A DNA stretch of 64,000 nucleotides from Luidia sarsii (taxonomy: Eukaryota; Echinodermata; Asteroidea; Paxillosida; Luidiidae). Positions 10,301 through 46,450 of the stretch are shown piece by piece; the first letter of the stretch is position 1; each line of letters starts with the position of its first letter. The stretch spans positions 7,503,772 through 7,567,771 of the forward strand of contig OX465107.1 of the NCBI GenBank assembly GCA_949987565.1, given 5' to 3'. Made by a program: the position numbers and the translations under genes. Under the pieces are notes generated by a model, which had not been told where the DNA came from, made no database searches, and saw only the letters and a program-made list of their open reading frames with translations.

Positions 10301-10655
10301 CTGAGATTGAACCGCTTTTTTTTTTTTGTGGCACGAGATTGTCATGGGATCCCGCCGACTCACCGCACAACTCGGCCGCCTCGTCCGACCCGTCGCTGCA
10401 GTCCGCCACCAGGTCGCAGGCGCTCTCCGCCGGCACGCACTGCAGGCCGCTGCCGCACGACATCTCGTCTCCACGGCAACGGCTGCCTAGCGACGGCTGA
10501 CCGACGGGCTGCACTTTCGTCATCGGCGTCGACAAGAAGTTGTCTGATTGTCAGAAACGGTCAACATTACCAACAGATTTGGTGCGATGCAGTTAAAATG
10601 TAGCCCTAATCTCTCCCTCCCTTCATCTTTCTCTCTCCCCACCCACCCTCTCTCT

Positions 10656-10690
<35 letters not shown>

Positions 10691-17954: not shown

Positions 17955-18240
17955 TCACGCGGTGAGGGGCAGCTTCTGCAGCACGTCCTGCCGGTTCAGT
18001 CTCTGCAGGGCGGCCACCAGGAGGCCGACAACGGCGCCCTCACCGTCCGACCAGACGGTGAGGATCCGGTGCACGGGCAGGTCGTGCTCCGAGGTCTTGA
18101 TGAAGTGCACGATGTCCTTGTCCGTGAAGCCCAGCTCCTTGGCCACGCCGCGCCAGTCGCGCCGGTCCAGCCGCGAGATGCCCAGCAGCGACTCCACCTG
18201 GGACCGCGTAGCCGTCGGCAGGTCCCGGTACAAAGTCGTG
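17955..18240 (-). CDS. NGFR: NGFR exon 5: death domain and stop
   Basis: The acceptor actccagtttccag before 18240 is chosen over the ccag seven bases upstream because only it gives the required phase 2. The exon encodes a death domain (SQVESLLG, WRGVAKELGF, DIVHFIKTSEHDLPVHRIL, VGLLVAALQRLNRQDVLQKL) and ends PLTA with TGA at 17955-17957. The pattern DWRGVAKELGF then a Trp in VWSDG matches the p75NTR death domain. Confidence 0.93.
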
Positions 18241-21200
18241 CTGGAAACTGGAGTGCGGAGGGGAGAAAAGCACACACAACTGGGTTAAAGAAAAAAAACA
18301 TTGGCGGCGACCGTGCACGGTGTGGGATTACCCGTCCGTAAGTTGCGCACCAGTGAGTCCGGAAGTACCCGCGGGGAGGGATTATTTCCGTCGCCTTGGC
18401 GGCGAGCCTTTAGCATGAAGTGGAGTCGCTCGAGTTAATAGCGTTACACATGATCCCTAGCCTAAGGGATGTGCATCGGGATGTCTGATGTATCGGAGAC
18501 GGAATCCCATGAGAAGTGGCCAACATTTTTGTCTGCCTTTTCTTTCCCGTTTTTTTTCGGTGAAAGACACCCAGTGTCTTTGTCCATGCCGCCAAAAGAT
18601 GTAGGCCCATACATGGCGCGTTTACTATCAGCAGATCTCCTTCAGGCAGGAAGCTTTTTTTTTCAAGCAGAAACACAATTTCAGGTTCGTCATTCCTCAC
18701 CGAATCGATGTCTTATAAAGCTGTCATTAAACAAGCAAGGATCAGTGCTATTCTGTAAGCCTATATCGGGCATCTGACGTCATTTGAAAAAAGCGTCCCC
18801 AACGGAAGATCCAGAGAAGAGGTCTCATTCGCCCATTCTCATTCGAAGTCTGATCATCGCTTTTCTAACTTGATGGCGTCCGGTTGTGTCTGCATCGAAT
18901 CCTCATTTGCCAGGCACGATCGTGCCAGATGAGATTGGGCATTATACAAAATTGAAGCGGCGACATTGTGTGATATGGTTGTTGATGTTACAGAGGCCCA
19001 AGACGCGTCTGCTGCCCGCACCGGACCTCCAGGCAACCGCGTTTACCCAAATCCACAGCCGTAGCCGTAGCCTTATTCATACCAGCCCGACCCCCCCCCC
19101 CCACCACCACTGCAGACCTGGGCCGCTCGTCCACCGAGGCCATGCTGGTGAAGAGAGCGGACGACTTCTTCTGCGGGTGGGCCGAGCTCTTCTCTGCGCA
19201 GTCCACTTGGGACGGAGGCCCAGACGGCGACCTATACGAGAGAGAACGAGTCCGCAATTCCCTTTGATATCTCAGTTTGAACTCAGATCTTTCAACAGAA
19301 ACCACTGCTGTAAACAAAAGGATATCGAAAGGCTGAGAAAATCTGCAGTAAAACGACTGGGACCGAGAGATGGCGGGAATGCAAGATAGACTGAATACCG
19401 AGTCCACTTTGGTTAATCTGTCCACGGTGGGATCTGAACCCGACACTCACAAGACGAAAGTTGGCGAAGCAACCACTTGAGGGCCTGGCCATCCAAGTTG
19501 ATGTTTCGCTTCCCTATACCCACCCTCTGCATTACCCTCCTCTGAACAAGACTGCACCTTTAAGCTTCTACCGTCGACCTTGTCTCGCTACCATCTAAGA
19601 GATCTCTCTGCAAGGATCGAAGTGCCAGCATCGCCAACTTTTTTTTGGAGGATGATTTGGTTTGAGTATCGAAGCCGTTCACTGTGAACCCCGTTGGGCC
19701 GTACAGTGTTGGACAAAATCGTCTGCACAACAGTTAGTCCGGGGACGTCATGAAGGCTGCAAGCTTGCTTGTGACAGTTTTTTTTTACCAACACGGGTCA
19801 ACAGTAATTGGACCTTTATTGCCTTACAATTCTTGATGTTCGGGCCGACGTTAGTTAGAATGATGGTTCAGTCACAAATAAGTCTGTGCATGCTGGAATC
19901 ACAACGTGGACAGTTTGCAGTGACACCGTGGATTCATCATGTAAGCCATCTACTTTGAGGAGTATGGCTCTGAGAAGAGCCGGCGACTTAACGTTTCTGA
20001 CAATGTGTGCTATGCCCCTCGTCACTATAGAGACTGCTCTGTGCCAACTAATAAATTATAATGGTGTTTACACTGTATTTCGTAGATCGCTGACGCTTTA
20101 TACAAAGCTTGAAGATTCACATGCACTGGACCACGTCGTAGCATTAAGGTCTGAGTGCGTACATATTTTACATACCTGTTAGCTTTGGAGTGAGCTCGCA
20201 GCTTGATCTTCCTGAAGGACCATCTCTTGAACACCACGTAGGCAAGCAGTCCGATGACGACGAAGGCCAGTATGGCGCAGTAGATGGGCACGATGCTAGG
20301 GGACCGCCCGTCTATGGTCTCCGCTATAGGGTCGGGGCTCAGACTACCCATGCGCGTGGTGCCGGTCGTGGGCACCAGTTTACCTGCGGGACCAGCGACA
20401 GAAAAAAAAATAGCATTCATTGCTGATTCAGTAGAAATGACTTTGATCACCATTTCTACTTAGCATTCATTGCTGTGAGAATGAATCCGTGAAGGCCGGG
20501 TATAAGGTGACTATGGTATAACTTGTAGGCGTCGGCATAGTACGGTATAGGTTGTGAACCTACCTTCGGCTAACTCTTGGTAGACCAATGCATAATTCGC
20601 CTAAACTGTCCAGCTGTGTGATCAGACTTCAAGGGCTGCATGCCGGGAATCACAATGTGGAAGGGTTTCGGCGAAACCGTCTGAGTCATCTCTTTCGAGA
20701 AGGAGTTTGGCCCTGAGGAGAACATATACGGGCATGACACACACTGTCCGAAACTCCCAAACTCCTTTTCGAAAGAGACGACTCACATTGTGTCAGCACA
20801 AACTGTTCCATATTCCATCCGTGTGGTGGTAACTCTGTGATTCGTATGGCCCGTGAACCTTTCTTTAATAACCAGTCAACAAATCGAAAACTTTCCCTAT
20901 TGATAATTTATTCAATAGAGCAAAGACTAAGGCTTGAACACGCACATCTTCTTCAACGTGGTAGCGCTCTACCGCCTGAGCTATCTATCCGATAGACGGA
21001 GGCCTGCCCAATAGTCAACTATCTTTGCTTGGTCTAGACAAATCATCTCTTGTTCAAGCCTTCATATAGTTTGAATCACAGTGCATCAATCTCAGTACAA
21101 TGAGGAAGAGAGGGTTATGGTACAGTTTGTTTGTCCGCCTGAGGAATTTGATCCATTTAGTGAGCGATGCATAGCCTAAACGGCAGTCTACAAGCTATCA

Positions 21201-24200
21201 CGAAAGATGGAAGGATTGTCTGCTTCAGATTCAGGGACTGAGCGGCGACCGGCTTCGCAGCTTTACCTGAGCAGACGGTGTCTGAGAAGCTGGTGCAGGC
21301 TTTGAGCACCACAGAGCCTTGGGTACATCGGCTGCACGGCTCGCAGCTATCGGTGGCGCTCGTCACGTACGAGAAGGTACCGTTGGCGCAGGGCTGGCAC
21401 TGGGAATTCGTCCGCGCGGTGCAGCCCACCGCCGCGCCGAAGCCCGGCGGGCAGGGGTCGCACTGGCTGCAGGAGCCGTCCGCCGTGCGGAAGTAGTTCC
21501 GCCGGCACTCGCACACGGCGTCGTGGGTGGCGTTGCAGGGATGCCGGACGAGCTGGTTGCGGGCGCAGCGGGTGCAGGGCCGGCAGCCGGCCGTGTGGCT
21601 GGGCTTGGCCGAGTACGTGATGTCGGCGTAGCAGCGGGCGCAGACCGTGTTGTTGGCGGCCGAGCAGCGGGTCTGCACGCCCCAGCCGGCCGGGCACTGG
21701 AGGCAGCACTCCCCGGTCGGAGTCAGCTCCCCGCTGGGACATTCTGGCTCGACAAGGGGAACGCACTCAACCTGCATGGTCACAAAAGTGTGGAAGGACA
21801 ACATTCAGTGTTATTCCTTTGCATTGGATTATACATTGCTGTTCTGCTGAACTCTGCCGACGGCATTACACATGATTAACTATTAGTATTACCATGGAGG
21901 AATAAGCCTCCATGGTATTACTAGCTTAGTAGCTTCATGCCAAGTATCCCTTAAATAATCAAGATCAAATTATCATAAATAATGCACGGTATTCGAAAAA
22001 AAAAAAACTATCAGCAAGAATGCACCAGAAAGTATGTTCTATATTAAAAACGTCAGCCTGAATTTCGGCTCATTATTTTTCTTATTAATTAAGCATCTTT
22101 CAACAGTGCCAATGAGGGTTTATGGGGTTCCTACTGCATGCACAATTCGTCTTGGACATCACAGACAGAGAAAACGACAGTCGGCATACTTTTGCCCCGA
22201 TCCCTGAAGGATATCAGATGGCCTGATAAATTTGTTAAATCCCCTAATCCACTCTAAACCGATTGGAGGGTGCGTGACTGACTCCGAGTTGGCACGCTTG
22301 ACACACATCTGCGGCAACCTCTCAGAGCGACACCACATGTGCACACCACACCGCGATGATCGGTGCAGCGTGCGGAAAGGGCGCCCTCTGCCGCCGCGAA
22401 TTGGAGAGCAGCGTGGGGGTGAATAACCTTTCGCAGTTGTCAAGGTTCTCGAATCAGGGGCTTGCCATTTCGATTACATTGCGATCGAAGCCCAGATAGG
22501 ATACACAGATGACAAACAATCTGGGTAACAACTTTTACTTACAACCCCCCCCCATCCCTCTCCTTCCACAGAAGGTCGACTGTAATAAGCACACAGGGTA
22601 CCAGTAAGCGATCGAATCGACTTGATGTCATTACAAAATATCGTCTCAAACACTGTGAACAGAGCCTCTGAAGTTGTGATGGCGTTCTGGCAGTCCTATA
22701 ACGACATGGCTTCAGAGTAAACCATCCCCGTTTGTTTGTCACGGCAACAAAACACTTTGGTTATTACCTTTTAAAAGTCAGCGTCCAAAGCACTTTACGA
22801 TTCGAAAAGAAGAAAGTCCGTAAAAAAGTGATAAAAGTAATTGGGATTTACAGTGCGGATTACATAACCAATATCAACAGAGTGGACGAGCGAAATAACA
22901 ATTTCTTCTTTCTTTCTTTCTTTCTTTCTTTTTTACTTGGAAACTGAGGGGGAGGGGGAGGGGTCGGACTTGGATGAGTTGGCCTCCGGGCGACTTCGTT
23001 TACGAGAATCTGTCAGAGCGAGTCAGTACCCGTTTACGAGCTAGCGGCCCATCCATGCACTGCACTCCAGCGAGCCTCGCGACTCTTGGCACCGATGGAG
23101 GGAAGCGCGCTGCGCTGCCGGCCCCGCCGGCCCGGCCAGCTCGGCGCAGCGGATTACCCTTGTAAGGCAAGAATGTCGAGGGGGGGGGAGCTCGCTCGTA
23201 AATCACGACCGCCAGACATTTTGACAAACCCCCCTTTTTTCGGCTTCTGAGCTCCCCTTCGTATAAAACCAAAGCCCGCCATCTTCCACGCTCGCGCAAG
23301 ATGGCCCCGCAAAGAGACCCGAGGCGCATATCGTATAGGCCTAGCTGTGTCAGCTTCGCACACAACCCCCGTTAAAAAAACACGCAGAAAAGAAGTACGG
23401 TGTCCGCTAAGTGACACATGGAGGGGCACGCCCGAAGCAGCAGAAATGCGGCCATCACGGCGAGAGCGGGCGAGCAGTTCAGAATACTGAAGACCGCGGT
23501 AATCCTAATTCCCCGTGCATTCACGGGTGGAGTCGACCAGGTGCGAGCAGTTTGCATCCGCAGATGAACAGAACGTAATGTCCATTCAGTCCCTGCCTCT
23601 TCGATCTATCACGCGACCTTGTGTATACGGATGGGGCTTTTTTTTTATTGGTCGGCAGTTAAGCTCAATTCGGAGCGCGATTAAAGAAAAAGGGATAGGA
23701 CCTATATACTGTTCCTACTTTTTTTTGACGTCTGGTTTTGTAGCCAAGGATGCCGCTAAGTACGCGCGTATGGCTGATCCCTTTAAAGGAAAAAACAAAA
23801 CAAATCTCGCCCGAACCAGAAAGGGAAGGGGGGAGTCGTTGAATAAACAGCGTCACGGATTGGCTGGAACAAGATGAAACATTCCCCTCAATCTTATTAG
23901 AGCGAGGGCCTATAGCCTTCGGATCTTATAGCAGCACTGTACCTCTCTCACCAGAGGCGGAACAAGATGTATGCAACATTTCTGCATCGGATCAGACATC
24001 GGATCAGAAAGTTGTTGAAAGTTTGCGGTGAACACCATCGTATTGACAATCTCGATCGAGAAGGAGTGTATTACGGTATCTGGCTCTGAGAAGAGCCAGT
24101 GACAGCCCCTCCCGGAAAAGAGATGACGGACACGGTGTCAAACCTTTCTCATTCCCGCGTCATTTTTTTAGTCAAATAATCCTCCGGTCCGACTTTCCTT

Positions 24201-25070
24201 GGCGATCTTGTGTTTTGTCTATACGGGCGATGTTATTAATCCCTTCGACTGTATAGGGCGACCTTGCCCCGTATACAACCGCACCCGACGTCGGCAACAC
24301 GGGATCGGTCGCCATCACCCCCACGGAGATGGGTCCCTCTCTGTTCTTTAATTCGCGACAATGGGAAGATTAAGGATGACCTCAGCTCCGCCAGGGTGTG
24401 AACCCGTTTCTGTATAATAATGTCGGCTCCGGTCCCAACGAATGGCATCGCTTTTGTTAACCGCAGTTTAGCCGGGCACAATGCAAACACGTACACACAA
24501 CGGTGTTTCCGAATCGTCATATTATATGTCCCAATAATATGACTGCAATGAAACCCATGACCAGCGTATACGGGTAAGCACCTGCCTTTTCCACTTCCCC
24601 CCCCCAAAAAAAAACATAATAAAAAAAAAATCTACCAAGTAAACACTGGGGTTCAGAAGCAAACAAACAAACAAACATCTCGAAAACAAGTGCCGGTACA
24701 GGATTAGGGTATCCGTTGCAGGGAGACATTAAAATCCCGCCATTAGCGATGGGGAATCGCTATCATCCCATCCCGCTGAATAGCCCATGCAGGCTGCGGG
24801 TTGTTTTTTTTGTTTTTTTATTGGCGACAGTCAAATCAATTGGAAGCCCTTTTTGTTCAGCTTTACTAGTGGCTTATACGACCGGCGGTTGGAGACCACT
24901 GTCCGCGACCAGGTTTATGACCTCCACCGGGGGATGAATGGGGTGGGTCTCTCTCTCTCTCTGTCACTCCCTCTTCCCCCTCTCTCACCCTCTCTCTCCT
25001 TCTTCTCTCTCTCTCTCTCTCTCTCCCACTCTCTCTCTCTCTCCCACTCTCCCCTTCTCTCTCTCCCTCT

Positions 25071-25119
<49 letters not shown>

Positions 25120-27210
25120 ACTCTCTCTCTCTCTCCCACTCTCCCCTTCTCTCTCTCCCTCTCCCACTCTCTCTCTCTCTCTCCCACTCTCTCTCTCTCT
25201 CCCACTCTCCCCTTCTCTCTCTCCCTCCATATATCTCTTTCTCTCTCCATCTCTCTATCTGTCTCACCCTCTTTCCCTCTCTCCCCTTCTCTCTCTCTCC
25301 CTCCCTATCTCTCCTCCATATATCTCTTTCTCTCTCCATCTCTCTGTCTTACTCTCTTTCCATCTCTCCCCCTCTATCTCTCCCTCCCACTCTTCCCCTC
25401 TCTCTCTCCCTCCCCATATGTCTCCTCCATATATCTCTTTCTCTCTCCATCTCTCTATCTGTCTCACCCTCTTTCTTTCCCTCTCTCCCCTTCTCTCTCT
25501 CTCCCTCCCTATCTCTCCTCCATATATCTCTTTCTCTCTCCATCTCTCTGTCTTACTCTCTTTCCATCTCTCCCCCTCTATCTCTCCCTCCCACTCTTCC
25601 CCTCTCTCTCTCCCTCCCCATATGTCTCCTCCATATATCTCTTTCTCTCTCCATCTCTGTCTTATCCTCTTTCCATCTCTCCCCCTCTATCTCTCTCCCT
25701 CCCACTCTTCCCCTCTCTCTCTCCCTCCACATATGTCTCCTCCATATATCTCTTTCCCTCTCCATCTCTCTAACCCTCTCACTCTCTTTCCCCTCTCTCT
25801 CTCACTCTCCAATATTTCTCTCTCCCTCCCTATCTCTCCTCCATAATATCTCTTCCTCTTTCCATCTCTCTCCCCCTCTTTCTCTCTCCCCCTCTTTCTC
25901 TCTCTCTCCCTCCTCTCTCCCCCTCTCTCTCTCTCCCTCCCCACTCTATATCCCACCCCCTCTCTTTCCCTCCCCCCTCTCTCTCTCTCTCTGTCTCCCC
26001 ACTCTATATCTCCACCCCTCTCTCTCCATCCTCACTCTCTCTCTCTCTGCCTCCCCCTTTCCTTCTCCCCCTCTCTATACTCTCCCTCACCTGCTAACCA
26101 CCACCATCGCTCTCGTGGTTTTTCAGAGAGGGATAAATAGAGCAAAGAAGGGGGTAGGCTATGACCGGGGGTTGGTGGAAACTGGGCTTGCTTTGGGAGG
26201 AAACGCAAGAAAAGCCCACGATGCGAGCATCAGCGACGGAACCCCGGTGAACGCCTTGAAAAGAACAGCGGTGCGAAGCGATCAACAAAGAGACTTGCGC
26301 CGACCCGCACAACACGAAGACGCTATAATTCTGGAGCGGATGGATATGGGCGGAGCCTATATTATAGGGGTCACTGAGGCAACTGCGATGGCCGAATGCA
26401 CGGCCAGTGAATAAACCCATTTCAACCTATTCGGAATCAGCAACGCACCGTTTTATCGCTCTCGAAATAATGGTCTCTGTTGTAATGATCACAAGAATAT
26501 GCTTTTCTAAAATTAAAAAAAATATATAAACAAAACAGGGCCTGACGTTTCGATCCCGGCAGGACCATTCTCAAAAGGCCGAATGTCTGATATTTTTTTT
26601 TTATCGATTTGCATTTTGGTCATTTGCAAATTTCATGGAAATGTGCGACCAATTGCGTTGAACGAGCGGAACTTAACTAAACTTACTTAGCTTAATTGAA
26701 TTTATAAAGGGGTAATAAGACAGTTTCAGAGCGCTAGTACAGTAAAAAAAAAAAAAAAACACGATGTACAGTGTACATCGCTGTAAAAGATCACACGATG
26801 AGTGCGTGATCGCGGGTCGTGATCACACGACGGTACTAGTCTATCGTAGGTCGAGCAGCGACGGATCGTAATGGCCTATAACTATATAAGTCCTCGCGCA
26901 ATCGACCTCCATGTGCAGTCATTTCCACGAAGATGCAGCACCCATTGCTCCCACATTATTCACCGAGACAAAACAGCACGGCCCGCCCGCTCTGCATTGA
27001 GGATTTCACCATCAGCCGGATTTAAAGTTGTCTTCCTGATCCGTGCATATATAGGCCTATATATGACCAATGACCCAAACCACGAAGGACATCCGGTGCG
27101 GGCAGCACGTCCAGTATAATACTTTTTTGTGTTCTTCAAAGAGCCCACAGCAAACCAAGCGAGCAAACAAGACAAACGAACACTACACAACACCCAGATT
27201 ATACGCGAGC

Positions 27211-27249
<39 letters not shown>

Positions 27250-30200
27250 TAGACAGAAAGACAGATGTCATTACAAGGAGAAGGACATGACATTTTTTCG
27301 GTCCTGCACCGTGGATGCTACCCCTGATAAAGAAAAAAAAACGAAGGAGCGAAAATCCCTTGCCAAACACTTGGACTGGTTGAACCAGAAATGATGAGTT
27401 ACTTCATGTATAGTTGATGCTTTGACCAACACTTGCTTTTGACAGTCTACACCACTGAAGCAGGTTCTCCTTCAAACATGTAGAGAGAGAAAAAGCTCAC
27501 TGGAAGTTATTATTAGAGACATACTCGGGCATGTATTTACATCACGCCCGTGAGGCAACGTCGTGCGGTCTGAAAAAGTGCATGCATCAAGGCCTATATA
27601 CCGTTGGATTCAACACGCCGGGGTTCAACTTCAAGTTGCCAATGCGCCGAGACTACACCCGGTCACCCGCACACTGCACATTCCGACATCGTAATGAGGT
27701 GGTGGTAGGGGCTGACTGCTCGGGAACCAATTCAGTTCAGACCCGACTTTTGATCCCTGGAAATCCCCTCCAGAATCCCTCGCTAACTCCCAAATCCAAA
27801 TGCCAGCGCCATGTTTGTTATGAAGACTTAGAGCTGCATGCCCCCTACTCCTATATACAATAACATACTGTTCGCGATTTTGTTTTTCCTCATACGTTAG
27901 GTAGGTCTAATAACATGAAGTAATGGTGATATACAAAAATGTTGCAAACTGCTGACTGACTGAAATTACCAAAATGCAAATCTCAAAATTTAGTGGGCCT
28001 GACGTTTCGATCCTAGCAGGACCTTTCCCTGCCTTTGAGAAAGGTCCTGCTAGGATCGAAACGTCAGGCCCTCTATATTCTATTCAGAAAAAAAACCCCA
28101 TAAATTAAACAACATTTGGGGTAAAGATGACCAACAAAAAAGGGGGACAAGGATTTGAAACAAAATCTGCGTCTGGTTAAAAAAGAAGAAGAAGTGACAC
28201 TGGCGTATTATTAATCGGACTCGACGGGATAAGAATAAGGTTTGTTTTCTCAACGGGGATCATTCCATTTCTAAAACAAACTCGGCGCTATACCGTATAC
28301 GCTACAGCCGTGGATATGTTATTATATTATAGAGCACGCCACTCTGGTAACGGCGGTAAGCCTCCGAGGTCGAATGAAAACAACTAGCGATTTAGCCGCC
28401 AAAAGCCCCCACTATTCTCTCCTCCAGTGCGCCGGTCGTAATTCCCGTGCGTGATGCACCCCCTTCTCCCCCCCCCCCTCCCCCTTCCCCCACAAAAGAC
28501 CACCTTTATTTTCTCGTTCACCGACCGTGTCTGGCCGGTTATTCTTCCGCGCTAACGCACCGTTCGTTCGGCGGCGCTGCCGAATCGCGGGCCATATCTT
28601 TCTTTCTTTCTTTCTTTTCCCCCCACTTCTTTTAACCCCCCCCCCCCGACTCGCTCCTTCCCGTAAACCTATCAGTTACTGAACCGGCTACGTTTCGATA
28701 CACGCGCGACAATCGATTTCATACGCTCAGTGGAGAAGTGGAAAACAAGGTAATCCCCATTGAACGGGTCACGGGCGATTGACTGCCCCGTACAAAGCTC
28801 AGGGGGAAAAAAAAGAGAGAGAGAGAGAGATCCTTGCTACAATTTGGGGCTGTTCCCCAACTAGGCTACGGTAGCTATTAAGGGAAAAAGTGTGCTGAAT
28901 TACATTGGTTTTTAACAAAAAACCAAAACACCACACACACACACTCAGGCTTACCGCGCACTTTCTATGTCATGTATTGCATTTTTTTGGGTGCCGTCAA
29001 AAACAAACAAACAGGTCTCAAAAATTAGTGGACCTAACGTTTCGATCCTAGCAGGACCTTTCTCAAAGGCAGAGACCTTCGAGAAAGGTCCTGCTAGGAT
29101 CAAAACGTCAGGCCCACTAAATTTGAGATTTGCATTTTGGTAATTTTAGTCAGTAAGCAGTTTGCAACATTTGTGTACATCACTTTAAATAAGCAGACTG
29201 AGCAAACCCGCGACTGACAATCCAACTCGGTAAAGGTTCCGGTGGAACAGTTCGAAAACCAAAAATGGCTGCCACGCTATAAAAAAACCCCACTGGGCCT
29301 ATAATATGCGATGCGTGCCGACGTGCCGAAACTTTAAGCAGAATCGTTTTCATGCCACCCCACGTGTATATTAAGCAGTCGGCCTGCGTATATAGTTGAA
29401 GCATTGCAAAGTGAGCAACTCAAACATCAGCTATTCAGATTCTGTGCTGCATGTAGGCCAGACGGTTTAATGATGCAGGCCTGATAATCAATCCAACCTT
29501 GCCCATCTTGAGCTCATTCTTTCATCCTTTGATACGACCCTCTCCCTTTGATGTTTATCCAGCCTCATTCGTTCGCCTCTTTCACCTTCGCCTTTTCCTC
29601 TCCTAGTCGTCCCTCGATAGCTTCTTTCAAAGAGTCCACCGTGTCCAAGGATAATCATGTCCTGTCCACTCCTTTTTTTGCCTCTCTTAAAAATTAGATT
29701 CGATTGACTCACCACCTCAACCATTTTCGAATACATATACACGCACAGTATTGTAACACGTATTTACACGCACTGTATTGTAACACGTAATATACACGCA
29801 CTGTATTGTAACTGTAACTGTATACTCAGATTAAAATACAGTCACGCCTAAAAATGCCTTTTTTGGTAATGGTCGAAGCGAGACTGCTCGGCCACGTTCT
29901 GGTCTAGTCGTCATTAAATATTTCATCATCCTCTGTAATGTCGTCTCCCCCCCCCCAAATTTTTTTTTAAAAACAATTAAAAATTAAAAATCATCATGAA
30001 CGACGACACGTCACCTCGTTATTCTCCCGAGGAAGGCGCGGTAACCTCAATCCAATCACGGGGCTGACGCCCGTTCCTTTTGTCACCGCGGCCGCCGTAT
30101 TTTTTTTTTTTTGGGGGGGGGGGTTGGTAAAAATAATCATGTTCTCTTGGCATGCCAAAGAATGATAAAATTGATGGCGGAGCTCGCCTTTGTGTTTGCC

Positions 30201-36200: not shown

Positions 36201-39200
36201 CGAAGCTTTTCCTGCAGGTGCGAATTTACAACACGGCGCCGGGCACTTTGCCAGCCAACCCATCGGTTATTCCCTGTTGTGTTGTGGGATCGCAACAGAG
36301 CATTACTCATCCAAAACAAATCAGTACACACACATTTCTAATCTCAACATTACTCAATTTCTAATACTCAACATTATACTCATTCGCCTGTTTACTCATT
36401 CTATAAATACACGTGCGAGTCACTTCATTCATACTCTTCTCAAGAGGGCGCGGCCGAATATTTTGCTTTCGTCACGATGCGAAACTTTAATTTACCTCGT
36501 AGGCCTATAAACAAAAACCGGGCAAACACAACAGCCTCAAACGCCAGCCGAACCCCTCTTCAGGAAAATTGCTTCTCCGAAGCCGGAAAAATAGTCGATT
36601 CACGTAGACATACCTAGGACGTCTACGACATGAACTCGGCTTCGGTCATATTTCTCTAATGTATCCGTTATAATGTCAAGGGCATCTAGAAACAAGCGTT
36701 TGGCCCCAGTTTCCTGGTGAATATTCTGTGGGCCTATTATACTTATCAGGCTATTAAACAAACCTTCACATTCGGGGACAAACCGCAACCTGGATTTTCA
36801 GGATTTTGTCAGACGGAGTCCCAGCCCGACCCACGGATTTGTAAAAAGCTGGCCATGGTCAATTCCATTGATTCCACGCGCCCCATTTTTGTTTGGTTCC
36901 ATCCACGCCTGACTCGGAGCCGTATCGAATTGTGTGCGTTCAGCGGGTGAACCGCCTATAGTATAACCACCGACAGCGCCCAGCGTTTGTTCCAATGCAC
37001 TGCATGGCCTGACCCTTTTGCAAATCGCATTCGGCGAGAGGAAAGGGTAGTTGGGGGTGGGGATACGGGAGGACAGCGATCGGGTATTGACAGTCAAAAA
37101 AAAAAAAACCACCTCGCCGTGCACTTGGACTTGTATATGAGCCAGGATTGGGTTTACTCTGCCCTAGCCTGTGTTTTCCTTCACTGAGGGGACCGAAGGC
37201 TGAACACAGTCTCCACCGTCTACAGCTGTACTGGGGAGGCCAGATATGGGCAGGTGCGCAGGACTGACTGGGGCAGTTTTCCGATCAATCTCCCTCCGTC
37301 TCTGCATCTGTTCTTTTTAAAGAACTGCAGATTCGTCCTATCCTATCCTGTGCCTTCGTCAATATTTAGTTAAGAAGGAAGAGGGTATAAGGCCTCTCTC
37401 GAGAATCATGCATATAAACATGTATATTATGGGGGGTTGGTACTGGCATTATAGTAGTTGGATATGTTATTATTGATGCGGGCGGTGGATGGGGGGGAGG
37501 GGGGTTCACAGGCATTATTATGGATACGGGGTTGCCCCTGCAGTCTGATGCGACAGAGGGTCGAGGGGGCGGTGCGCTCTCTTTGTGCGCGTCGCCCGGC
37601 AGTACAGTGTTCACCGCCGAAACTCGGCTCTTTCTCATCAGATCGGGACTGCGTGGGGACGATCCGAGGCTGAATGCGATGCTAATCGCAGATATCATTT
37701 GGCGTACGTGTTTGTGTGTGTGTGCGGGGGGGGGGGGGCAAGGATTGGGGGAAATAAACAGGCATCTCTCATTGCGATTGTCTCATCTTTTCGATACGAA
37801 TTCCCAAATGCCCCCCCCCCCCCGCGGCCCAAGTTAACTCGGTATCTCTAACTTCATTTCGTCTTATTTTCACAATCCAGAATCAATCTTCCATTGTAGG
37901 TCTAGTTTTACGACCCCCACCCCAAATAAAGAAAAATGTCGCCAACTGCTTACTGACATAATGACAACTAAATCTCAAATCTCGAAATGATGTGGAGAAC
38001 CGGACGTTTCCATGAAAACGGCAGCTTTCGCCAATTTACAGAGACGAATAATTCTGCCGGAATCGAAACGTCTGACCCTCTAGCTTCTTTTCAGGTTTTG
38101 GTCAATAAGGTCAGTTGGCGGTTCTTGACGTTTCTGAAAGAAAGAAAAAGTACGACACATTTTTTTTTTTTTTTTATACATCGCTTGGTATCTAATTATA
38201 GCCATAGCAGACAAACAAAATGAAACCTTGACCGTGTGTCAGCTGGTTCAGTAATTAAATACACAAAGTTGTGGATTACGTCAATTTGCGTTAATTCGAT
38301 TACAGCCTACGGCAGGCAACTCCTCCATTTTCACGGACTGCAGGCCAAATGAAGAAAATTATATTAATAAATTGAGGGGGGGAAAACCATAAACAAGACT
38401 GCATTTGATTTCCCAATGGGGAAAGGATTACCCAGTGGTTGACAATGTGCGTTTTGAGTCCCTGGATGAAAAAAAACACCCTTCCGTGTGAAATACCGAC
38501 TGGGCTCCCGAGGCTTCCACTTGAATTAACGATCGCCAGAATGTAAAGGAGATTTTTTAATCGGGCGTGAGGACGAAAAAGACACTAAGTCAACACGATG
38601 GTATAATATCGATGGCAAAAAAAACCACTTCTAACTTGGGAGGCAATTATTGCATATTACTCCGGAAACTGTGTAAATATTGACACTCTCGTCATTCCCG
38701 CAACGGCCCACAATAATGTACTTTCATCACAAGCGATAGAGAGACAGACAATGGGAGACAAACAGAAGGGGGGGGTAAACAGAGGATGGAGAGGAGAACA
38801 AGAGACACACAGAGAGACAGACGCACCGAACGAGAGAGTCGAAGGGACACAGAGACAAACACAGACAGACACACACGGGTAGCGACGAGAGACACACAGA
38901 CAGTGAGAGGGGAAAGCCGGGAGACACCTTGGTGGTACTTTGGAGAGAGCACTTTTTGACTAAGGCGATAGTAGAGAGATACGGACAGTTTGGGACAGAG
39001 AGAAATAGAAAGAGGGGAGACAGATACAGAGGAGGGAAAGAGTCAAATTTCAAAGAGAAACGAACAAATAGACACGGAGACGGGGAGATGCAACACAGAC
39101 ATAGAGATGGGAGAGGGAGGGGAAGAGAGAGAGAAAGAGGGAGGGACAGGGAGACAGACAGACAGACAAGAGACAATCTGAGAAACGAACAGATAGACAC

Positions 39201-42200
39201 GGAGACGGGGAGATGCAGAGACAAACACACAGACACATAGAGGAGAGAGAGGGGAAGAGAGAGGGGAAGAGAGAGAGAAAGAGGGAGGGACAGGGAGACA
39301 GAGAGACAGACAGACAAGTAAGAGACAATCTGAGAAACAAACAGATAGACACGGAGACGGGGAGATGCAGAGACAAACACACAGACACAGAGATGGGAGA
39401 GAGAGGGGAAGAGAGAGAGAAAGAGGGAGGGACAGGGAGACAGACAGACAGGTGAGAGACAATCTGAGAAACGAACAGATAGACACGGAGACGGGGAGAT
39501 GCAGAGACAAACACACAGACACAGAGATGGGAGAGAGAGGGAAAGAGAGAGAGAAAGAGGGAGGGACAGGGAGACAGACAGACAGACAGACAAGTAAGAG
39601 ACAATCTGAGAAACGAACAGATAGACACGGAGACGGGGAGATGCAGAGACAAACACACGGACACAGAGATGGGAGAGGCAGGGGAAGAGAGAGAGGGAGG
39701 GACAGGGAGACAGACAGACAAGTAAGAGACAATCTGAGAAACGAACAGATAGACACGGAGACGGGGATATGCAGAGACAAACACACAGACACAGAGATGG
39801 GAGAGGGAGGGGAAGAGAGAGAGAAAGAGGGAGGGACAGGGAGACAGAGAGACAGGTGAGAGACAATCTTAGAAACGAACAGATAGACATGGAGACGGAA
39901 AGATGCAGAGACAAACACACAGACACAGAGATGGGAGAGGGAGGGGAAGAGAGAGAGAAAGAGGGAGGGACAGGGAGACAGAGAGACAGACAGACAAGTA
40001 AGAGACAATCTGAGAAACGAAAAGATAAACATGAAGACGGAGAGATACATAGACAAACGCACAGACACAGAGAGAGATAGGGGGAAGAGAGAGAGAGGAG
40101 AGAGGGGGGACAGGGAGACAGACAAACAGGTGAGAGACAATCTGAGAAACTATACAGATACACACAGAGACGGTGAGAGAGAGCGAGAGAGAGAGTTGAG
40201 AGAGAGAGAGAGAAAGAGAGAAAGAGGGAGAGAAAGAGAGAGAGAAAGAGAGACAGAGGAGATGCCTACTATAGGATGCAGTCGGTAAATAAACCATTTC
40301 GGGCGCTCCGATTGGCTGAGAGCGTCGGTATCCCGGGGAGACGGGCTCGATCTCTCCACTGCTCCTAATTTGCTCTCTGGCGCGTCCCCCACCTGCGTTT
40401 TCCATATTGCGAGTCAATAAGAGGGGGGTAAACAATATCGCTGCCACTTATGCACGCCGCCAGGCGAGCCCCCCTCCCCACCCTCCTGGACCAAAATCTC
40501 AGGACCCCCCTCCCTGAGTCCCACTCACCCCAGCCCCACCTCCCCCCTCCCCGTCGGCCACACAATACCCACTATGTCAAACAACAAATTTAGTCTGGTA
40601 GAAGGTCACTGCCGAGTCACAGTCGGCATGATGGAAAAACCGTGCCCAGACTGGCGGGGTCCATTTTCTCTCTTCATCATAATGCACGTGTTATATACAC
40701 ATAACATCTTTTTTTTTCTTCTTCTCCGATCGGGCTTCTTTCTCCAGCGCAAACCCCCACAAGCGCTGGTTCATCTACCGGGCTCCGAGGCAAATGGGCC
40801 CGGACAGGTCTCCGCTGGGCGCGCGGTGCTGAGAGCATTCCGGGAGACTGCGGCGTCAGTTCGGGCAAATGGCTACAGTTTCACATTGAACTCGGCATGG
40901 TGCCGACAAAATACACCGATCACAAATTTCTCTCTACCGTCTCACCCCCACCCCCAGCTCAGCTCCAACATGCAGGCACCACCCCTCCCCTATACCAGCG
41001 GCTTGTTTCTTCTGCTTGTTCTTCCTCCTTGGAGACCAGACATCGAGAGGAAGGGAGGGGGAAGGAGGGGGGGGGGAGAGAGTTAACGACACCAACCTCA
41101 GGAATTTCATTTTCGTCCTTGCAAAGCTTAACGAGGTGTCGGCCACGCTGACGGCCCTATAATCCGAACTGACTCATACAGCAGAATTTGACCGTGGCTC
41201 ATGGATCGGTATTTTAAATGAGTTAAGTGCCGGAGCTAGCCACGGGAAAATCCCATTAAACCCACAAACAGACCAACGTGAACGACGGCGAGCCTTGAAG
41301 TCATTCTAAAACGAAATCGAATTTCACCGTTTTTATTTTGTTAGTGGTTTTTTTTAAATGTTTGTTTTGAATTTTCCTTTAATATTTTGTTTTGATTTTT
41401 TCCTAATCTGTTATTGTTCCCGTTTCATCAAATTCAGCGAAGAACACCTATAATCGTAATCCTCCTAGTAAAAGGGCAGATTGCCCACACAAAGGTTCAT
41501 TCCTGTCCTCAAGTAGTCTCCTCTCAAGTCATCGCCATCTTCTCCAAACCGATCCGCACCCCAATTCCCTAGTCCCGCCAACCCCCCTCAATGCCCGTCC
41601 AATGTCCGCTTCAAAGAAAAGAGACGAGAGGGCGAGCGAGAGAGAAAGGGAAGAGGATGAAGGGGTGGGAGGGAAAAAGCAAAGCCCCACAAGAATTAAG
41701 AAAAAAGCGATGCCAAAAATCGAGTTTTCAATTTGGTTAATTAAAATCTGGCCCCGGCGGCACTGTAAGCTGGCTAACCAGTTTGGATTCGAGAGCAGGG
41801 AGGCCGATTGGACGTGACAGGCGGCGCACACAGTGCGTCTGTGCGGTTCCGCGCCGAGCGAAGAAAATGATCGGCCCAAGATATTTCCCTTCCCACCCCC
41901 AACCCACCCAACCGACCCCACCCCCACCCTAGCCCCGACGACCGGCAGCTAGGGCTGTCGGGACGGCACAATCGAGAAATTTATCACAAACCGGTGTGTG
42001 GAAACGAACACCCCCCCCAAAAAAAAAAAGCCTTTAAAACCAGTCTCCGGAACGGCAGATTATTCGGCAATCAGGTATAGGCCTACGCCCGTGGAGAAAA
42101 AGACCCCAAACACTCCATGCAAGTTTACAATCCGACTGTGTAATATAGCAGACGTCATGCACACTGCAAATGGGGAGCTTATTTCCATGCAGAAGACCAT

Positions 42201-45200
42201 AGTATCCCATAAGCTCAGAAAGGACACAGTTCTCCACTTCATCCCGAAAGCAATGCCGTTATGATTATACACTATAAACGGGAAAGTCGTCGTTCCAATG
42301 ATTGTAATGGTTGGTAGATTTGATAAGATTTCAAACAGAATACTACAGATTGAATTGGCTGAAACACTATGGGTGCTCGACTGAAAACAAAGAAGAATTG
42401 TTAATTTAATGTTTGTCAACAGCACAACTTGTACCCTATTGCCTCTCCCCCTTCCCGTTTGTGATATTACCGTATCATCCTGCATTTGAGAAAGGCACTG
42501 CAAGAATCGCTTTCAACGTCAGGCACTCTAAAATGGTCGAGATTCGCACTTTTGGGTCTTTTCAAGTAGTACATCACTTAGGCCTAAAGTCATTTTGGGC
42601 TAACTCTTCAAACCTTTTCTTATTCTTCAATATTTCATAAGTAGATTAGGAAATAGTTTCAAGAAACACGAAATTCTCCATAGCTAGGCTATCATTACCC
42701 CCCCCCCCCCACAAAAAATAAAAAATAAAAATTAGCTCCAAGCTGGGGTCGGGCAAGTTTCTCCCTGGATTACGGAGCGAGCGTAAAAGTTCAAAACGTC
42801 AGCCCATGCAGTTCGGTTTTCTTTGGCGGAAAACCCCCGCACAAAACACACAAAAGGGAAATTTCGCGACTCGGCATTGCCGCTTGCATTGACGGCATTG
42901 TTCCCGCAGCCGGCAAACCCTTCCCTATCTTTCTAATCTAACCGCGCGCCATTGTTGTCCCAAGCCCCCCCCCCCCTTCTCTCTCTCTCCCAATAGAATT
43001 GAGAAATACACACCTAACTCTATGCCCGAGCACGAGGCCTGCGTGTGTGTGTGTGTTTTGTCATAGCCTGAGCTCAGTTTTCCCCATTTCGCCCAGCCCA
43101 TAATTCCCAAGCTTATAAAGATTATGATTCATAGTGTTTCTCAGCGCAGAAGCCGCCCCATTCGTTGTTCAAAGCGGAGCAGAAATGTATTGGACCGAAT
43201 CGAATGGCCAACAATGGCTTCATCATCTGAAACGGTCGACGTTTGCGGTTAATGTTGACCAGCGCCATTTTAAGTCTTTAACTGATAATCTTCATATTCT
43301 GTAAAAAGGTTGGTTTAACCATGGTTTACTGAGTACAACTGTCGTCATATCGCCAGTAATTTTTAACCAGTGCCGCGTTTCCTGTTCGGGACAACCATTA
43401 ATCGGTTTTGTTTTCCCAAACACTTCACTATCTTCAATATAACATACACACTGTACACGGTGTACACACATAGATGCGATCCGGTTTCACTGTGAGATGT
43501 CCACAAATGATTTTCGGAGGAAAGTCCCCCCCCCCCTGCTCGAAACGTCGAAGTGAACTCGCCCGCACTTCGGCGGAATTAGATCCCCCCAACACAGTTA
43601 TACCGGCGAGATACCGCTATCACTTCTCTCCGGGATTCCGAGTCTTAATTATGTTCAGCCAAGTCTGAAAATTAATCACTTGGACTGACCGACCCCCACC
43701 CCTACCCCCCCCCCCCCCACCCACACCATCCTCGGCTGTCACCCGTATCAGCTCGAGCTCCAATTAACCTATCCGAAGCGAACCGCAGCCTTCCTATTGG
43801 ATTACGTGTCGGGGACGAGAGTGCGGGTCGGGACGAGATTTGAAACGAGATCTGGTCGGTGAAGTCGGGCCGCCGAAATTGTCCGTGCCGGCCGAGAGAA
43901 AAAAAAACCCAACGTACCCTTTAATACAACAACCCAACGACCCGATGACGTTTATCTTGTTCAGCACTTTATGGTGGGTAAACAATGTACCGCGATAGCG
44001 CCACTTTGAGGCTATCGTTCGCAGACCAATCAAGACATAAGGCTTAAAATTCCAGTTGAAAGGAGGGGGAAAATCAATAGGGTCCGACACCAATCATTGC
44101 ACAGGAAATCTTTAAATGAGTCTACATTATTTGTAGGGGGTTCAATGAAGGTCTATATAATGCTTATGCACAGCAGGCCTCCATATACCATAGACCGTTT
44201 TTAAGCCGACGAAATGCAGGACTCGATGAACCATGTTAAGCTGTACTCTTGGCGAATAAGCTGTATATTATGTGTGACGTCGTTTCAAGCACACCCACCC
44301 CTTGCAGAGTTTTGTTTTATCGTTTGGTCCAGGAACCTTTTTTTTCTCGGTGCTTGTGCGTGTACACGTCGTGTAGACTGTAGTGTAGGATACGCCGACC
44401 ATGCACGGAGGCATGCATGGTTTGTTCCGGGGGGGACCTGACCGACCGAGAATGCAGCAGAGAAGAGCGTTGGGGAGACCGGCAGCGCGGCTGGGGTTAA
44501 TGCGTCAACTAGCCGTAATCCTCCCCATCCTATTGATCGTGTTGCGCTCCACATCAAAGCGCTGAAATGGATACCGCCTGCCCTTCTGCCCCCCCCCCTC
44601 TCCCCCCCCCCACCCCACCCACCCTCGGGCCCGGTCCTAAAACGTCTTCTGCTTTTGTGAAGCGACTTGCCTTAAAATAAAGGGATGAAAGGAAGAAAGA
44701 GAAAGAGAAAAGCCGCCGACACAAAAGCACGGATACACTCGTCCGTATACGACCGTGTTGATTTAGTTCCGTGGCCAAGTCGAGTCAGTGTCGGGGGATC
44801 GGATTGAAGGGGACGGGGGCCGAGGGTGGAAGGCCACGGTAGGACCTCATTCACTCCCGCCGCTGTCGCTGGCACATCAATGGGACAATTTACTCGATAA
44901 TTCGGTTTACTTTGGACGTTTTCCCCATCCAGATGAGTCATAATTTGGGAGATAGGAAGGTGGGGAGGGGGAGAGGGGATGCGGCATGACGGTCACTGTT
45001 GGAAACCAATTCACCCCCCCCCCGGTGCCAGATCGGACCGACTGATAAAAAAAAAGGATTCTTCTCCCGAAGCTCGTCTATATATCTCTGAGGTTCACTC
45101 CTAAAGTGCCGAGTCAATATTTGCGAGTGCTCCGTCAACACTGCTCTCCGCGTGTGTACAAATACAACGCGATGTCCTACAACTCGCGCGCGGAGAAGAC

Positions 45201-46126
45201 AGTTATGGATTAACACAACACGGTTCTAAGATGTGATACGATGAGGAGGGGGGGATGAACCATGGATATCGTCCAGCACCTCATAAGACACAGTCCTGGG
45301 GTTACTCAAGGCCTGGGGTTGATCGAAGTGAAGATTGCCACATGCCAATGAGACAATCCCTCGGGTATTGTAATCAATGCTACATTCTACTATTCAGTAT
45401 TCACTGTTTCGTAAATAATTATTATAAACAATATCAAAAGATTTACTTCTATTCTATTGTCACGAGGTTTTCATTTCCCTTGTTTGACTTTTCACACTGA
45501 TTTTGTCATGGTTCATGTTGAATACAATGCAATCAAAGGCCATTTCCCACTGTTGAAATGTCTTCTAGTTCTACTAAATCAAATGGTGGTAACAATAACA
45601 GTAGCCGTTAATAAAGGCATAACTCGCATCTTCAGCCGTGCAAAATGATGACAACTCATGAACACAAACTCGCTGGATGGTATTTGGCAGCTTTGGGTGG
45701 TGTGAAAAGTTAGCCGAGGTTGAATAAAGTGGGGTTTGACTGAGAATTCCGCTGAATATTACAATCGAACAACACAAATTGCACACACAACTTCCACAAG
45801 TGCCACACAAGAACAAGATCGTTTCAATTCGTTCAGTGTTCAAACTCTGGTCGACCAAAGGTTACGTTTCTGGCTACCATATAACCCCCCCCAAAAAAAT
45901 GACATATAAAAGCCACGCCCCCAGGCACGACCCCCCTCCTCCCTTGAGGGAAAAAAAGTGCAGTTATTGGTACACCGACCCTAATTACACCATTTTTTTT
46001 TAATCCAGGCGAGTCCAGAATGTACACATAAAGGGGTTTGCTTACCGTCATCGATAGGCACGTTAACAGCATCATCAGGATCACCGCGAGGCAGCGACAT
46101 GCCAGCGTCTCGCTCGGCCGACCCAT
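17955..46126 (-). CDS. NGFR: p75 neurotrophin receptor (NGFR / TNFRSF16) orthologue, complete
   Basis: Exons in transcript order are 46126-46046, 21771-21267, 20383-20176, 19231-19118 and 18240-17955, with phases 0,1,2,2 all consistent, giving 397 residues (human p75NTR is 427). Order: signal peptide 1-27; four TNFR cysteine-rich domains about 30-195; short stalk 196-225; transmembrane helix about 226-247; cytoplasmic linker; death domain about 305-395. Four CRDs with the death domain, plus the near-identical membrane block (PIYCAIL, AYVVFKRW), separate p75NTR from other TNFR family members. The family binds neurotrophins and proneurotrophins at the plasma membrane and signals survival or death through adaptors recruited to the cytoplasmic part. 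The membrane cysteine (residue 231) used for covalent dimers in vertebrates is kept. The first intron is 24 kb. Identity very secure; the assignment of the distant first exon is strong but inferred. Confidence 0.93.
19118..19231 (-). CDS. NGFR: NGFR exon 4: cytoplasmic linker
   Basis: Acceptor tctctctcgtatag before 19231 and donor gtctgc after 19118. It is 114 bp, phase 2 at both ends, and encodes SPSGPPSQVDCAEKSSAHP and a Ser/Lys-rich tail ending SVDERP. It fills the linker between membrane and death domain with exact phase fit. The donor gtctgc is weak; position and phase make the exon convincing. Confidence 0.78.
19410..19500 (-). repeat. tRNA-derived SINE copy, minus strand
   Basis: Read on the minus strand, CTCAAGTGGTTGCTTCGCC is A-box-like and CGGGTTCAGATCCCACCG is B-box-like, at tRNA spacing. 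No matching acceptor stem. Confidence 0.55.
19886..19985. repeat. Repeat with 'GGCTCTGAGAAGAGCC' hairpin, copy 1
   Basis: 'catgctggaatcacaacgtg' leads to 'tggctctgagaagagccg'. Related to 20637-20784 (shares 'ggaatcacaa.gtgga') and to 24030-24120 (shares the hairpin). Confidence 0.6.
20176..20383 (-). CDS. NGFR: NGFR exon 3: stalk, transmembrane helix and juxtamembrane
   Basis: Acceptor ctggtcccgcag before 20383 (phase 1) and donor gtatgt after 20176 (phase 2). It encodes a Thr/Ser/Pro stalk, then PIYCAILAFVVIGLLAYVVF and KRW followed by a basic stretch. The membrane block is nearly the same as in vertebrate p75NTR, including the cysteine, but the alanine of the vertebrate AxxxG contact appears to be Phe (residue 236). 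Confidence 0.94.
20637..20784. repeat. Foldback repeat with about 28-bp arms in NGFR intron 2
   Basis: Left arm 20683-20710 (ctctttcgagaaggagtttg) pairs with right arm 20754-20784 (caaactccttttcgaaagag) with few mismatches. The leader 'ggaatcacaatgtggaaggg' resembles 19886-19985. Confidence 0.7.
20940..21010 (-). repeat. tRNA-derived SINE copy, minus strand
   Basis: On the minus strand, TAGCTCAGGCGGTAGAGCGC (A box) and GTGCGTGTTCAAGCC (B-box-like) are about 30 bp apart. The T-arm is not well formed, so it is a SINE relic and not a tRNA gene. Confidence 0.6.
21267..21771 (-). CDS. NGFR: NGFR exon 2: four TNFR cysteine-rich domains
   Basis: Acceptor gaccatgcag before 21771 (phase 0) and donor gtaaag after 21267 (phase 1). 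Four CRDs: ECPSGELTPTGECCLQC..TVC, ARCYADITYS..DAVC, ECRRNYFRTADGSCSQC..SQC and QPCANGTFSYV..DTVC. The 'SGECC' and 'DAVC' landmarks are those of p75NTR CRD1 and CRD2. Candidate N-glycosylation sites are NNT, NAT and NGT. All four CRDs in one 505-bp exon is compact; vertebrates split them. Confidence 0.95.
21885..21922. repeat. 16-bp-arm hairpin ACCATGGAGG
   Basis: Left arm agtattaccatggagg (21885-21900), loop aataag, right arm cctccatggtattact (21907-21922), one mismatch. Similar in design to the hairpin at 48083-48118. Confidence 0.85.
24030..24120. repeat. Repeat with 'GGCTCTGAGAAGAGCC' hairpin, copy 2
   Basis: 'ctcgatcgagaaggagtgt' then 'tggctctgagaagagccag' matches the core at 19960-19985. 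Confidence 0.55.
24948..26090. repeat. 1.1-kb (TC)n-derived pyrimidine tract with higher-order repeats
   Basis: Almost pure C/T on the plus strand. After the simple (TC)n part, larger blocks repeat: 'ccatatatctctttctctct' recurs at about 25227, 25317, 25429, 25520, 25632 and 25739, and 'tctatctgtctcaccctctt' at about 25253 and 25455. The long open frames here (Ser/Leu/Pro on plus, Arg/Glu on minus) are by-products. Confidence 0.95.
26535..26585. repeat. Hairpin repeat family H, single arm
   Basis: 'gcctgacgtttcgatcccgg' and 'caggaccattctcaaaagg' match one arm of the family. Confidence 0.7.
27208..27265. repeat. (CAGA)n microsatellite
   Basis: About 12 units of cagacaga with one or two changes near the end. 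Confidence 0.95.
27930..28080. repeat. Hairpin repeat family H, full copy
   Basis: Leader 'tgatatacaaaaatgttgca' and 'aaattaccaaaatgcaaatc' precede 'gacgtttcgatcctagcagg', which is followed within 10 bases by its near-perfect inverse. Confidence 0.85.
29020..29165. repeat. Hairpin repeat family H, full inverted copy
   Basis: 'acgtttcgatcctagcagga' through 'tctcaaaggcagag' and then the inverse arm, ending with the inverted leader ('gatttgcattttggtaattt', 'gcagtttgcaacatttgtgt'). Its leader is on the right side while the 27930 copy has it on the left, so the arms are symmetrical. Confidence 0.85.
30511..31000. repeat. 0.49-kb purine tract (GGA/GAA)n
   Basis: Nearly uninterrupted purines on the plus strand (ggaggaggagaaggaggagg-type). 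Open in several frames (Glu/Lys, Arg or Leu/Ser on the complement); none has splice or start context. Such tracts can form triplex DNA. Confidence 0.95.
32565..32880. repeat. Cluster of TCGAC/GTCGA motifs
   Basis: About 15 occurrences of gtcgac, gtcgat or tcgact within 0.3 kb ('cactgtcgactatcagc', 'ccagctgtcgacctttga', 'attatcgactctcacttt'), irregularly spaced 15-40 bp apart. It looks like a decayed minisatellite or a clustered binding site. Confidence 0.65.
33190..33385. repeat. Hairpin repeat family H, rearranged copy
   Basis: Contains 'gctgtaaactgctttctga', 'cttgatatacaaaaaa' and the inverse arm 'gctaggatcggaacgtcagg' with a short duplication 'gctaggatcctgctaggatc'. Confidence 0.65.
34798..34905. 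repeat. GA-rich (GAGAGACA)n tract
   Basis: Purine-rich, with agagacagagag-type units; no coding sense. Confidence 0.9.
35280..35520. repeat. GA-rich tract
   Basis: Interrupted gagaga/gggaga units on the plus strand. Minus-strand Ser/Leu/Pro open frames here are artefacts. Confidence 0.9.
36598..36855. mobile_element. Diverged MITE family A copy
   Basis: Shares 'gcgtttggccccagtttcct', 'ggtgaatattctgtggg', 'gggacaaaccgcaacctgga' and 'ttttgtcagacgga' with 997-1246. Its ends are degraded. Confidence 0.7.
37940..38090. repeat. Hairpin repeat family H, diverged copy
   Basis: 'cgccaactgcttactgacat', 'ggacgtttccatgaaaacgg' and 'gaatcgaaacgtctgaccct' preserve the layout with a longer loop. Confidence 0.6.
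38715..40265. repeat. Purine-rich minisatellite, unit about 130-155 bp
   Basis: From about 39040 to 40150 a unit starting 'gagacaatctgagaaacgaa' and containing 'acggagacggggagatgcag' and 'gagggagggacagggagaca' recurs about eight times (near 39168, 39323, 39457, 39598, 39727, 39857, 40000 and 40133). Flanks are simple GACA/GAGA repeats. Open frames up to 478 codons on the minus strand are repeat artefacts with Ser/Leu/Cys-only composition. Confidence 0.93.
42485..42535. repeat. Hairpin repeat family H, fragment
   Basis: 'tttgagaaaggcactgcaag' and 'aatcgctttcaacgtcagg' match one arm with several substitutions. Confidence 0.55.
46046..46126 (-). CDS. NGFR: NGFR exon 1: start codon and signal peptide
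   Basis: The exon encodes MGRPSETLACRC followed by LAVILMMLLTCLSMT, then donor gtaagc after 46046 in phase 0, exactly the phase needed by the TNFR exon at 21771. The ATG sits in a strong context (gccgagATGG). The 27 residues form a clear signal peptide. The frame is also open upstream to a Met at 46201, but that start would add a basic, proline-rich extension ahead of the hydrophobic core, so 46126 is preferred. The link over 24 kb rests on strand, phase, signal peptide and absence of any better candidate. Confidence 0.75.
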
Positions 46127-46450
46127 CTCGGCGGGCCCACGGCGTCGTTGTGAGCGTGGTGACGGCCTCGGTGGCTCACCCATCTCACTCGGTGGCAACA
46201 CAGCGGCGGGCCGACCCCGAGCTAGCTATAGCTGCCTGCCGCGACTCTCCGATAGAGAGAGAACGGGGAGCTGAGAGTGAGAAGAGGGGAGAGGGAAACT
46301 CGGCCAGGCGGGTGCGATGGGTGAAATAACCGGCGGCAGTCCAATTTGCTGTTTTGGGGGGTGCGCCTGTGTTCGTGTGTGTGTGTGTGGGTGGGGCGGA
46401 CTTGGAAGTTTTTCTCTGGGCCCCCAGGCATAGACACGGAGGATCAACAG
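46127..46450 (-). promoter_or_regulatory. Putative NGFR promoter / 5' UTR region
   Basis: A CG-rich, CpG-containing stretch directly upstream of the NGFR start codon, in contrast to the AT-rich intron. No TATA box was seen. It is part of the bidirectional interval shared with eIF1. Confidence 0.35.

Follow-up and report, generated by a model that had tools for sequence, protein, structure and literature searches.

A predicted p75NTR/TNFRSF16 gene of the sea star Luidia sarsii, with a probable correction to its exon 5 and a putative distant signal-peptide exon

Does the genome of the sea star Luidia sarsii carry a complete gene for the neurotrophin receptor p75NTR (TNFRSF16), and, if so, where do its exons begin and end? 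The question is raised by a stretch of 64,000 nucleotides (assembly GCA_949987565.1, contig OX465107.1, positions 7,503,772 to 7,567,771 of the forward strand), hereafter the window, in whose numbering all positions are given. An earlier interpretation of the bare letters (the sequence-only reading) had described a five-exon p75NTR gene with a 24-kb first intron in it. An echinoderm p75NTR is already in print for the sea urchin, as the p75NTR passages of PMC2772990 indicate; an excerpt of PMC6371548 mentions Lytechinus p75ntr as screened, with no discernible pattern from 10 to 32 h, and an excerpt of PMC4812194 records p75 from an annelid. In the open-access literature searched, no paper on the present gene or on a sea star p75NTR was found. 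We conclude that the minus-strand gene in the window is very probably the sea star p75NTR/TNFRSF16, an ordinary, apparently intact protein-coding gene, predicted from sequence, of a receptor family previously known from many animals.

The five minus-strand exons of the sequence-only reading (46126-46046, 81 bp; 21771-21267, 505 bp; 20383-20176, 208 bp; 19231-19118, 114 bp; and 18240-17955, 286 bp) were present as described. Their splicing gives an open frame of 397 amino acid residues with no stop, all introns are bordered by GT and AG, and the exon phases (0/0, 0/1, 1/2, 2/2, and 2/stop) are mutually compatible. When the proteins of five relatives (three sea stars and two sea urchins) were compared with the whole window by tblastn, exons 2, 3, and 5 were matched by all five and exon 4 by three. 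The expect values (E) were as low as 9e-77, far past chance, and the best match outside 17.9-21.8 kb had an E of 0.48; with Patiria, exon 2 gave 2e-75 and exon 3 gave 9e-26. The model as revised below (Table 1) encodes 410 residues, counted from the ATG at 46126.

The domains of the predicted protein were judged against the curated cut-offs of Pfam, and TNFR_c6 (5.9e-24 over exon 2), TNFR_16_TM, which is the p75-specific membrane domain (2.3e-11, 44.2 bits versus a cut-off of 25.6), and Death (3.8e-9) were all above them. Three stretches of exon 2 passed the threshold individually. Nevertheless, the 24 cysteines aligned in this exon form four groups of six, and among 14 sequences 18 of them are invariant and six are at least 90% conserved; therefore, the four TNFR repeats, or cysteine-rich domains (CRDs), of the sequence-only reading are correct despite the Pfam count of three. 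The membrane motif with its cysteine, VPIYC in the present protein, was found in 20 of the 20 p75/NRADD-type relatives examined and was absent from P0007, a non-p75 outgroup. In a profile search that gave 34 proteins, every protein with all three Pfam domains was named TNFRSF16-like or NRADD-like, or was unnamed or hypothetical; the search also reached a brittle star, molluscs, and vertebrate p75/NRH1/NRADD.

Might the gene instead encode another death-domain member of the TNF receptor family (e.g., TNFR1-, DR6-, or Fas-like) that resembles p75? Chains of DcR3, OPG, TNFR2, and DR6 likewise align with the CRDs, at E values of 4e-17 to 2e-12. However, the CRDs and the death domain, taken separately, each match p75 chains best. 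Against PDB sequences, the best of 54 matches to the whole protein was the crystallised p75NTR ectodomain (5.8e-24). The death-domain exon alone gave 16 matches (E of 10 or less), the four top-ranked of which were p75 death domains (best, 1.7e-9); MyD88 was the next family (7.2e-5), and the death-domain chains of TNFR1, Fas, DR3, and DR6 were absent. The TNFR_16_TM score and the tree described below also disagree with such an assignment, which we regard as improbable in the extreme. In the p75NTR identification that we prefer, the predicted folds agree with the sequence matches. An AlphaFold model of the CRD exon (mean predicted local distance difference test score, pLDDT, 93.0) had p75NTR 1sg1 as its best Foldseek match, with template modelling (TM) scores of 0.87/0.91; a model of the death-domain exon (pLDDT 84.5) best matched p75NTR 4f42, 4f44, and 7csq (TM 0.65/0.82), and an E of 0.001 was reached by two matches only, both p75NTR.

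The closest proteins were TNFRSF16-like: among sea stars, those of Patiria (67% identity), Acanthaster (65%), and Asterias (58%), and, more distantly, those of the two sea urchins (43 and 40%). No protein of L. sarsii itself turned up in the protein database used. A maximum-likelihood tree was made from 24 rows, namely, 23 selected from 35 proteins and the present protein, with three outgroup rows and without any other death-domain TNFR. The present protein fell within the sea star clade (98/96), inside the echinoderm clade (100/100) and not with vertebrate NRADD/NRH1, and Patiria and Acanthaster were nearer to it than Asterias (93/85). A single clade of p75 and NRADD rows against the three outgroup rows was absent from the best tree, although it was not rejected (approximately unbiased test, p 0.318). 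The proposed orthology to p75NTR is well supported by the Pfam domains, PDB matches, closest proteins, tree, and predicted folds. Strictly speaking, and judging from the tree, vertebrate p75NTR and its paralogues NRH1/NRADD, which are vertebrate as well, seem to share this gene as their echinoderm counterpart.

The predicted product, a type I membrane receptor, would consist of a signal peptide, four CRDs, a p75-type transmembrane helix with a cysteine, a short cytoplasmic linker, and a C-terminal death domain. In vertebrate p75, the CRDs bind a neurotrophin-type dimer, the ligand shifts the arrangement of the receptor dimer via the transmembrane helix, and adaptors are recruited by the death domain, with neuronal survival, growth, or death as the outputs; the membrane and juxtamembrane cysteines have roles in signalling and palmitoylation. 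By homology with vertebrate p75, from which both binding and signalling are borrowed here, the sea star protein may bind neurotrophins as a receptor and use its death domain for signalling.

The beginning of exon 5 probably needs revision. The 397-residue protein is without about ten residues, between the linker and the death domain, that all five aligned relatives and the brittle star have. An acceptor, TTTTTTCTTTAACCCAG/T (the slash marks the splice site here and below), that would start the exon at 18279 has the same phase as 18240, keeps the frame open, and scores 10.46 (99.5th percentile) versus 5.22 (94th percentile). This start adds 13 residues, CVCFSPLRTPVS and one further S, in which PL..V.STT aligns with PLMAVPSTT of the relatives, and the tblastn alignments of five of the five relatives start at 18248 to 18275, upstream of 18240. 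A micro-exon coding for PLMAVP between exons 4 and 5 was also considered and rejected: in an ungapped 11-residue scan of 19260-18200, the best score was 19 versus a window-wide best of 29. The best local match of that scan (18275-18243) lies just upstream of 18240 and thus points to the acceptor at 18279.

The site at 18240 could still be the one in use if the linker segment seen in the relatives was lost in L. sarsii; it is an in-phase AG of high rank, and the death domain is unchanged by it. Moreover, on a profile of the five relatives, the score rose from 605.3 without the insert to 621.3 with the real insert, and random in-frame inserts also raised it (mean 613.2), so about half of the gain is gap filling. 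However, of 1000 random inserts only 3, and of 500 shuffles only 4, equalled or beat 621.3. On a sea-star-only profile, the corresponding rise was from 647.6 to 661.4 (random mean 655.9), which 23 of 1000 random inserts and 20 of 500 shuffles matched or exceeded. Together with the stronger in-frame acceptor and the upstream reach of all the alignments, these comparisons leave a lineage-specific loss improbable. As judged from the splice signals and alignments, exon 5 most likely starts at 18279, and the start in the sequence-only reading is probably 39 bases late.

Exon 4 was matched by three sea stars at E values of 4e-6, 0.04, and 0.042; the urchin linker is too divergent for tblastn to find the exon with it. 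The donor, CAG/GTCTGC, is as weak as the sequence-only reading had claimed (score 4.47, 93rd percentile of all GT). On two profiles, an in-frame alternative donor at 19022 (6.11) cost 12 to 24 bits, and skipping of the exon lost 46 to 58 bits; both were rejected. The same reading had suggested that automated annotation may miss exons 1 and 4, and this applies partly at most. All six echinoderm models aligned have linker sequence at the place of exon 4, so none fits a missed exon 4. The best 10-residue mean hydrophobicity within the first 45 residues was 1.88 to 2.63 in the three sea star models and the brittle star model, and 0.27 and 1.01 in those of two sea urchins, which have no hydrophobic N-terminus. 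Thus, only in the two urchin models, of the six, may a signal exon plausibly have been missed.

Several observations weigh against the gene model or its interpretation as given above. In the tree, one of the three outgroup rows, TNFR1B, whose branch was very long (5.02), was placed among the vertebrates. The segment restored in exon 5 resembles PLMAVPSTT only in part. The net charge of the CRD block is +3, versus -5 in Patiria, -3 in Acanthaster, and 0 in Asterias; elsewhere, the brittle star has -5, the urchins have -3 and -7, and two fish p75s have -19 and -28 (the value of -28 is from a protein with duplicated CRDs), and one marsupial TNFRSF16-like protein is basic as well (+2). Therefore, the acidity of the fish p75 surface is not preserved here, and neurotrophin binding is not assured, as far as residue charge can indicate. 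Finally, exon 1 (46183-46046) was matched by none of the five relatives in the tblastn comparison.

This last point leads to the question of whether the true exon 1 lies elsewhere, within the 24-kb intron or outside the window, and whether the exon at 46 kb is a chance ORF (open reading frame) that resembles a signal peptide or belongs to another transcript. We listed first-exon candidates between 64000 and exon 2 as phase-0 stretches from ATG to GT, with 12-80 codons and a donor score of at least 4, and obtained 58. The exon at 46 kb had the best combination of donor (ACG/GTAAGC; 9.03, 99.7th percentile) and hydrophobic core (3.2). Its first in-frame ATG is 46183 (46 codons), and the 46126 of the sequence-only reading is the second; both are in a GAGATGG context. 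A hydrophobic core of at least 2.2 was found in 11 of the 58 candidates, two of which are the two ATGs of this exon. Seven lie in a repeat at 61.6 kb (donors 4.36 to 5.0), and the other two have donors of 7.54 and 5.99, the latter (30379-30296) being the only one inside the intron. Six nested candidates in this low-complexity repeat gave sea-star profile scores of 663.6 to 666.3, versus 661.4 for the model with the 46-kb exon and 653.4 without exon 1; we read the 2 to 5 bits extra as an effect of their valine and methionine runs. The CpG ratio over 46001-46500 was not raised (50th percentile), and just upstream of the exon it was (1.25 and 1.32 in 500-base windows from 46501 and 46751, versus a mean of 0.88 for the whole window). 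In favour of the exon at 46 kb are its donor, the highest among the 11 hydrophobic candidates, and the spliced N-terminus, which in length and junction (VECVPL versus VDCTPL and AECTPL) is like those of Patiria and Acanthaster. An unspliced start directly before exon 2 (MLSFHTFVTMQ) was rejected as too short for a signal peptide. We consider a different first exon unlikely. The exon at 46 kb and an intron 1 of 24,274 bp are likely on the basis of splice signal, phase, and hydrophobicity; the distance of 24 kb given in the sequence-only reading thus holds if exon 1 is right, and its start codon was not the first.

Table 1. Features of the predicted p75NTR gene of Luidia sarsii in the window
Feature	Position	Strand	Details and support
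Exon 1, coding part: signal peptide	46046..46183	-	ATGs at 46183 and 46126; donor ACG/GTAAGC; prediction
Intron 1	21772..46045	-	24,274 bp, of which 3,129 bp tandem repeats; conditional on exon 1
Exon 2: all four CRDs, 505 bp, phase 0 to 1	21267..21771	-	Pfam, 24 cysteines, tblastn, structure model
Exon 3: stalk, transmembrane segment SIVPIYCAILAFVVIGLLAYVVFKRW, juxtamembrane start, 208 bp	20176..20383	-	Pfam TNFR_16_TM, tblastn
Exon 4: cytoplasmic linker, 114 bp, phase 2 to 2	19118..19231	-	tblastn with 3/5 relatives, profile loss if dropped
Exon 5: linker end, death domain, stop codon	17955..18279 (18240 in the sequence-only reading)	-	Pfam Death, acceptor score, tblastn

Intron 1 contains low-complexity arrays, CT/GA-rich and GAG, at 24948-26088, 30527-30996, and 39055-40262, the last with higher-order units of 134 and 404 bp. 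In a partial scan of its ORFs for a nested gene, 10 chosen stop-free ORFs had no Pfam match. In intron 2, the stretch TAGCTCAGGCGGTAGAGCG (20965-20983, minus strand) resembles a tRNA A-box and occurs once in the window versus 0.09 expected; it is perhaps a tRNA-derived short interspersed nuclear element (SINE). ARAGORN and Rfam (gathering threshold) gave nothing in the window, including at 20965-20983, and no repeats of at least 20 bases were found within 17500-22500.

Downstream of the gene, 7802-12555 (minus strand) holds one or more neighbouring genes, in which separate ORFs have LDL-receptor class A domains (Pfam, 8.8e-9 and 2.2e-7), and a third such match (6e-4) is below the cut-off; an acidic, repetitive ORF of 567 residues in the same region, for which Pfam gave no match, starts close to a stretch that resembles a signal peptide. 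On the plus strand, 1671-2570 is an ORF for a transporter of the major facilitator superfamily (MFS_1, 1.6e-13), and 55440-55877 is an ORF with a weak match to the translation initiation factor domain SUI1 (2e-4, 22.2 bits, below the cut-off of 25.5), perhaps a pseudogene piece or chance. A 93-bp tandem repeat occupies 59896-60514 (6.7 copies, 95% matching).

The present gene leaves the knowledge of the p75NTR family unchanged; it adds a p75NTR gene structure from a further sea star, a usable correction of the exon model, and a small clue to the evolution of ectodomain exon organisation among animals. Here, the four CRDs are in a single exon with phases 0 and 1, and thus its skipping would break the frame; exon 4 can be skipped in frame. 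According to the p75NTR passages of PMC2772990, CRD1 is in exon 2 and CRD2-4 are in exon 3 in chicken, mouse, and human, and skipping of exon 3 gives s-p75NTR. The same passages describe Dappu-p75NTR of Daphnia as having its CRDs in a single exon, as here, with a death domain and a p75-type membrane domain, but with three CRDs instead of four. From the one-exon CRDs of both animals, the intron between CRD1 and CRD2-4 would be a chordate or vertebrate addition, with exon 4 the only exon skippable in frame in the sea star, a proposal to which we give slightly less than an even chance. If it is true, exon 4 skipping would be the only in-frame route to an isoform here, and the isoform would have a shortened cytoplasmic linker.

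In comparison with known proteins, the TNFRSF16-like proteins of Patiria miniata (P0001), Acanthaster planci (P0002), and Asterias rubens (P0003) agree with the present one in domain order, membrane helix, and death domain, and are 400-404 residues long versus 410. Ahead of the death domain, the linker sequence is PLMAVP, PLMTVP, and PLLTIS in these three and PLRTPVS here, with one residue more. Vertebrate p75NTR (NGFR) and NRH1/NRADD have the CRDs, the membrane helix with its cysteine, and the death domain in common with the sea star protein, and solved p75NTR structures match its predicted folds. Two fish p75s have a juxtamembrane cysteine (KRWNSCK) that the present protein lacks (KRWSFRK), whereas the membrane cysteine is kept.

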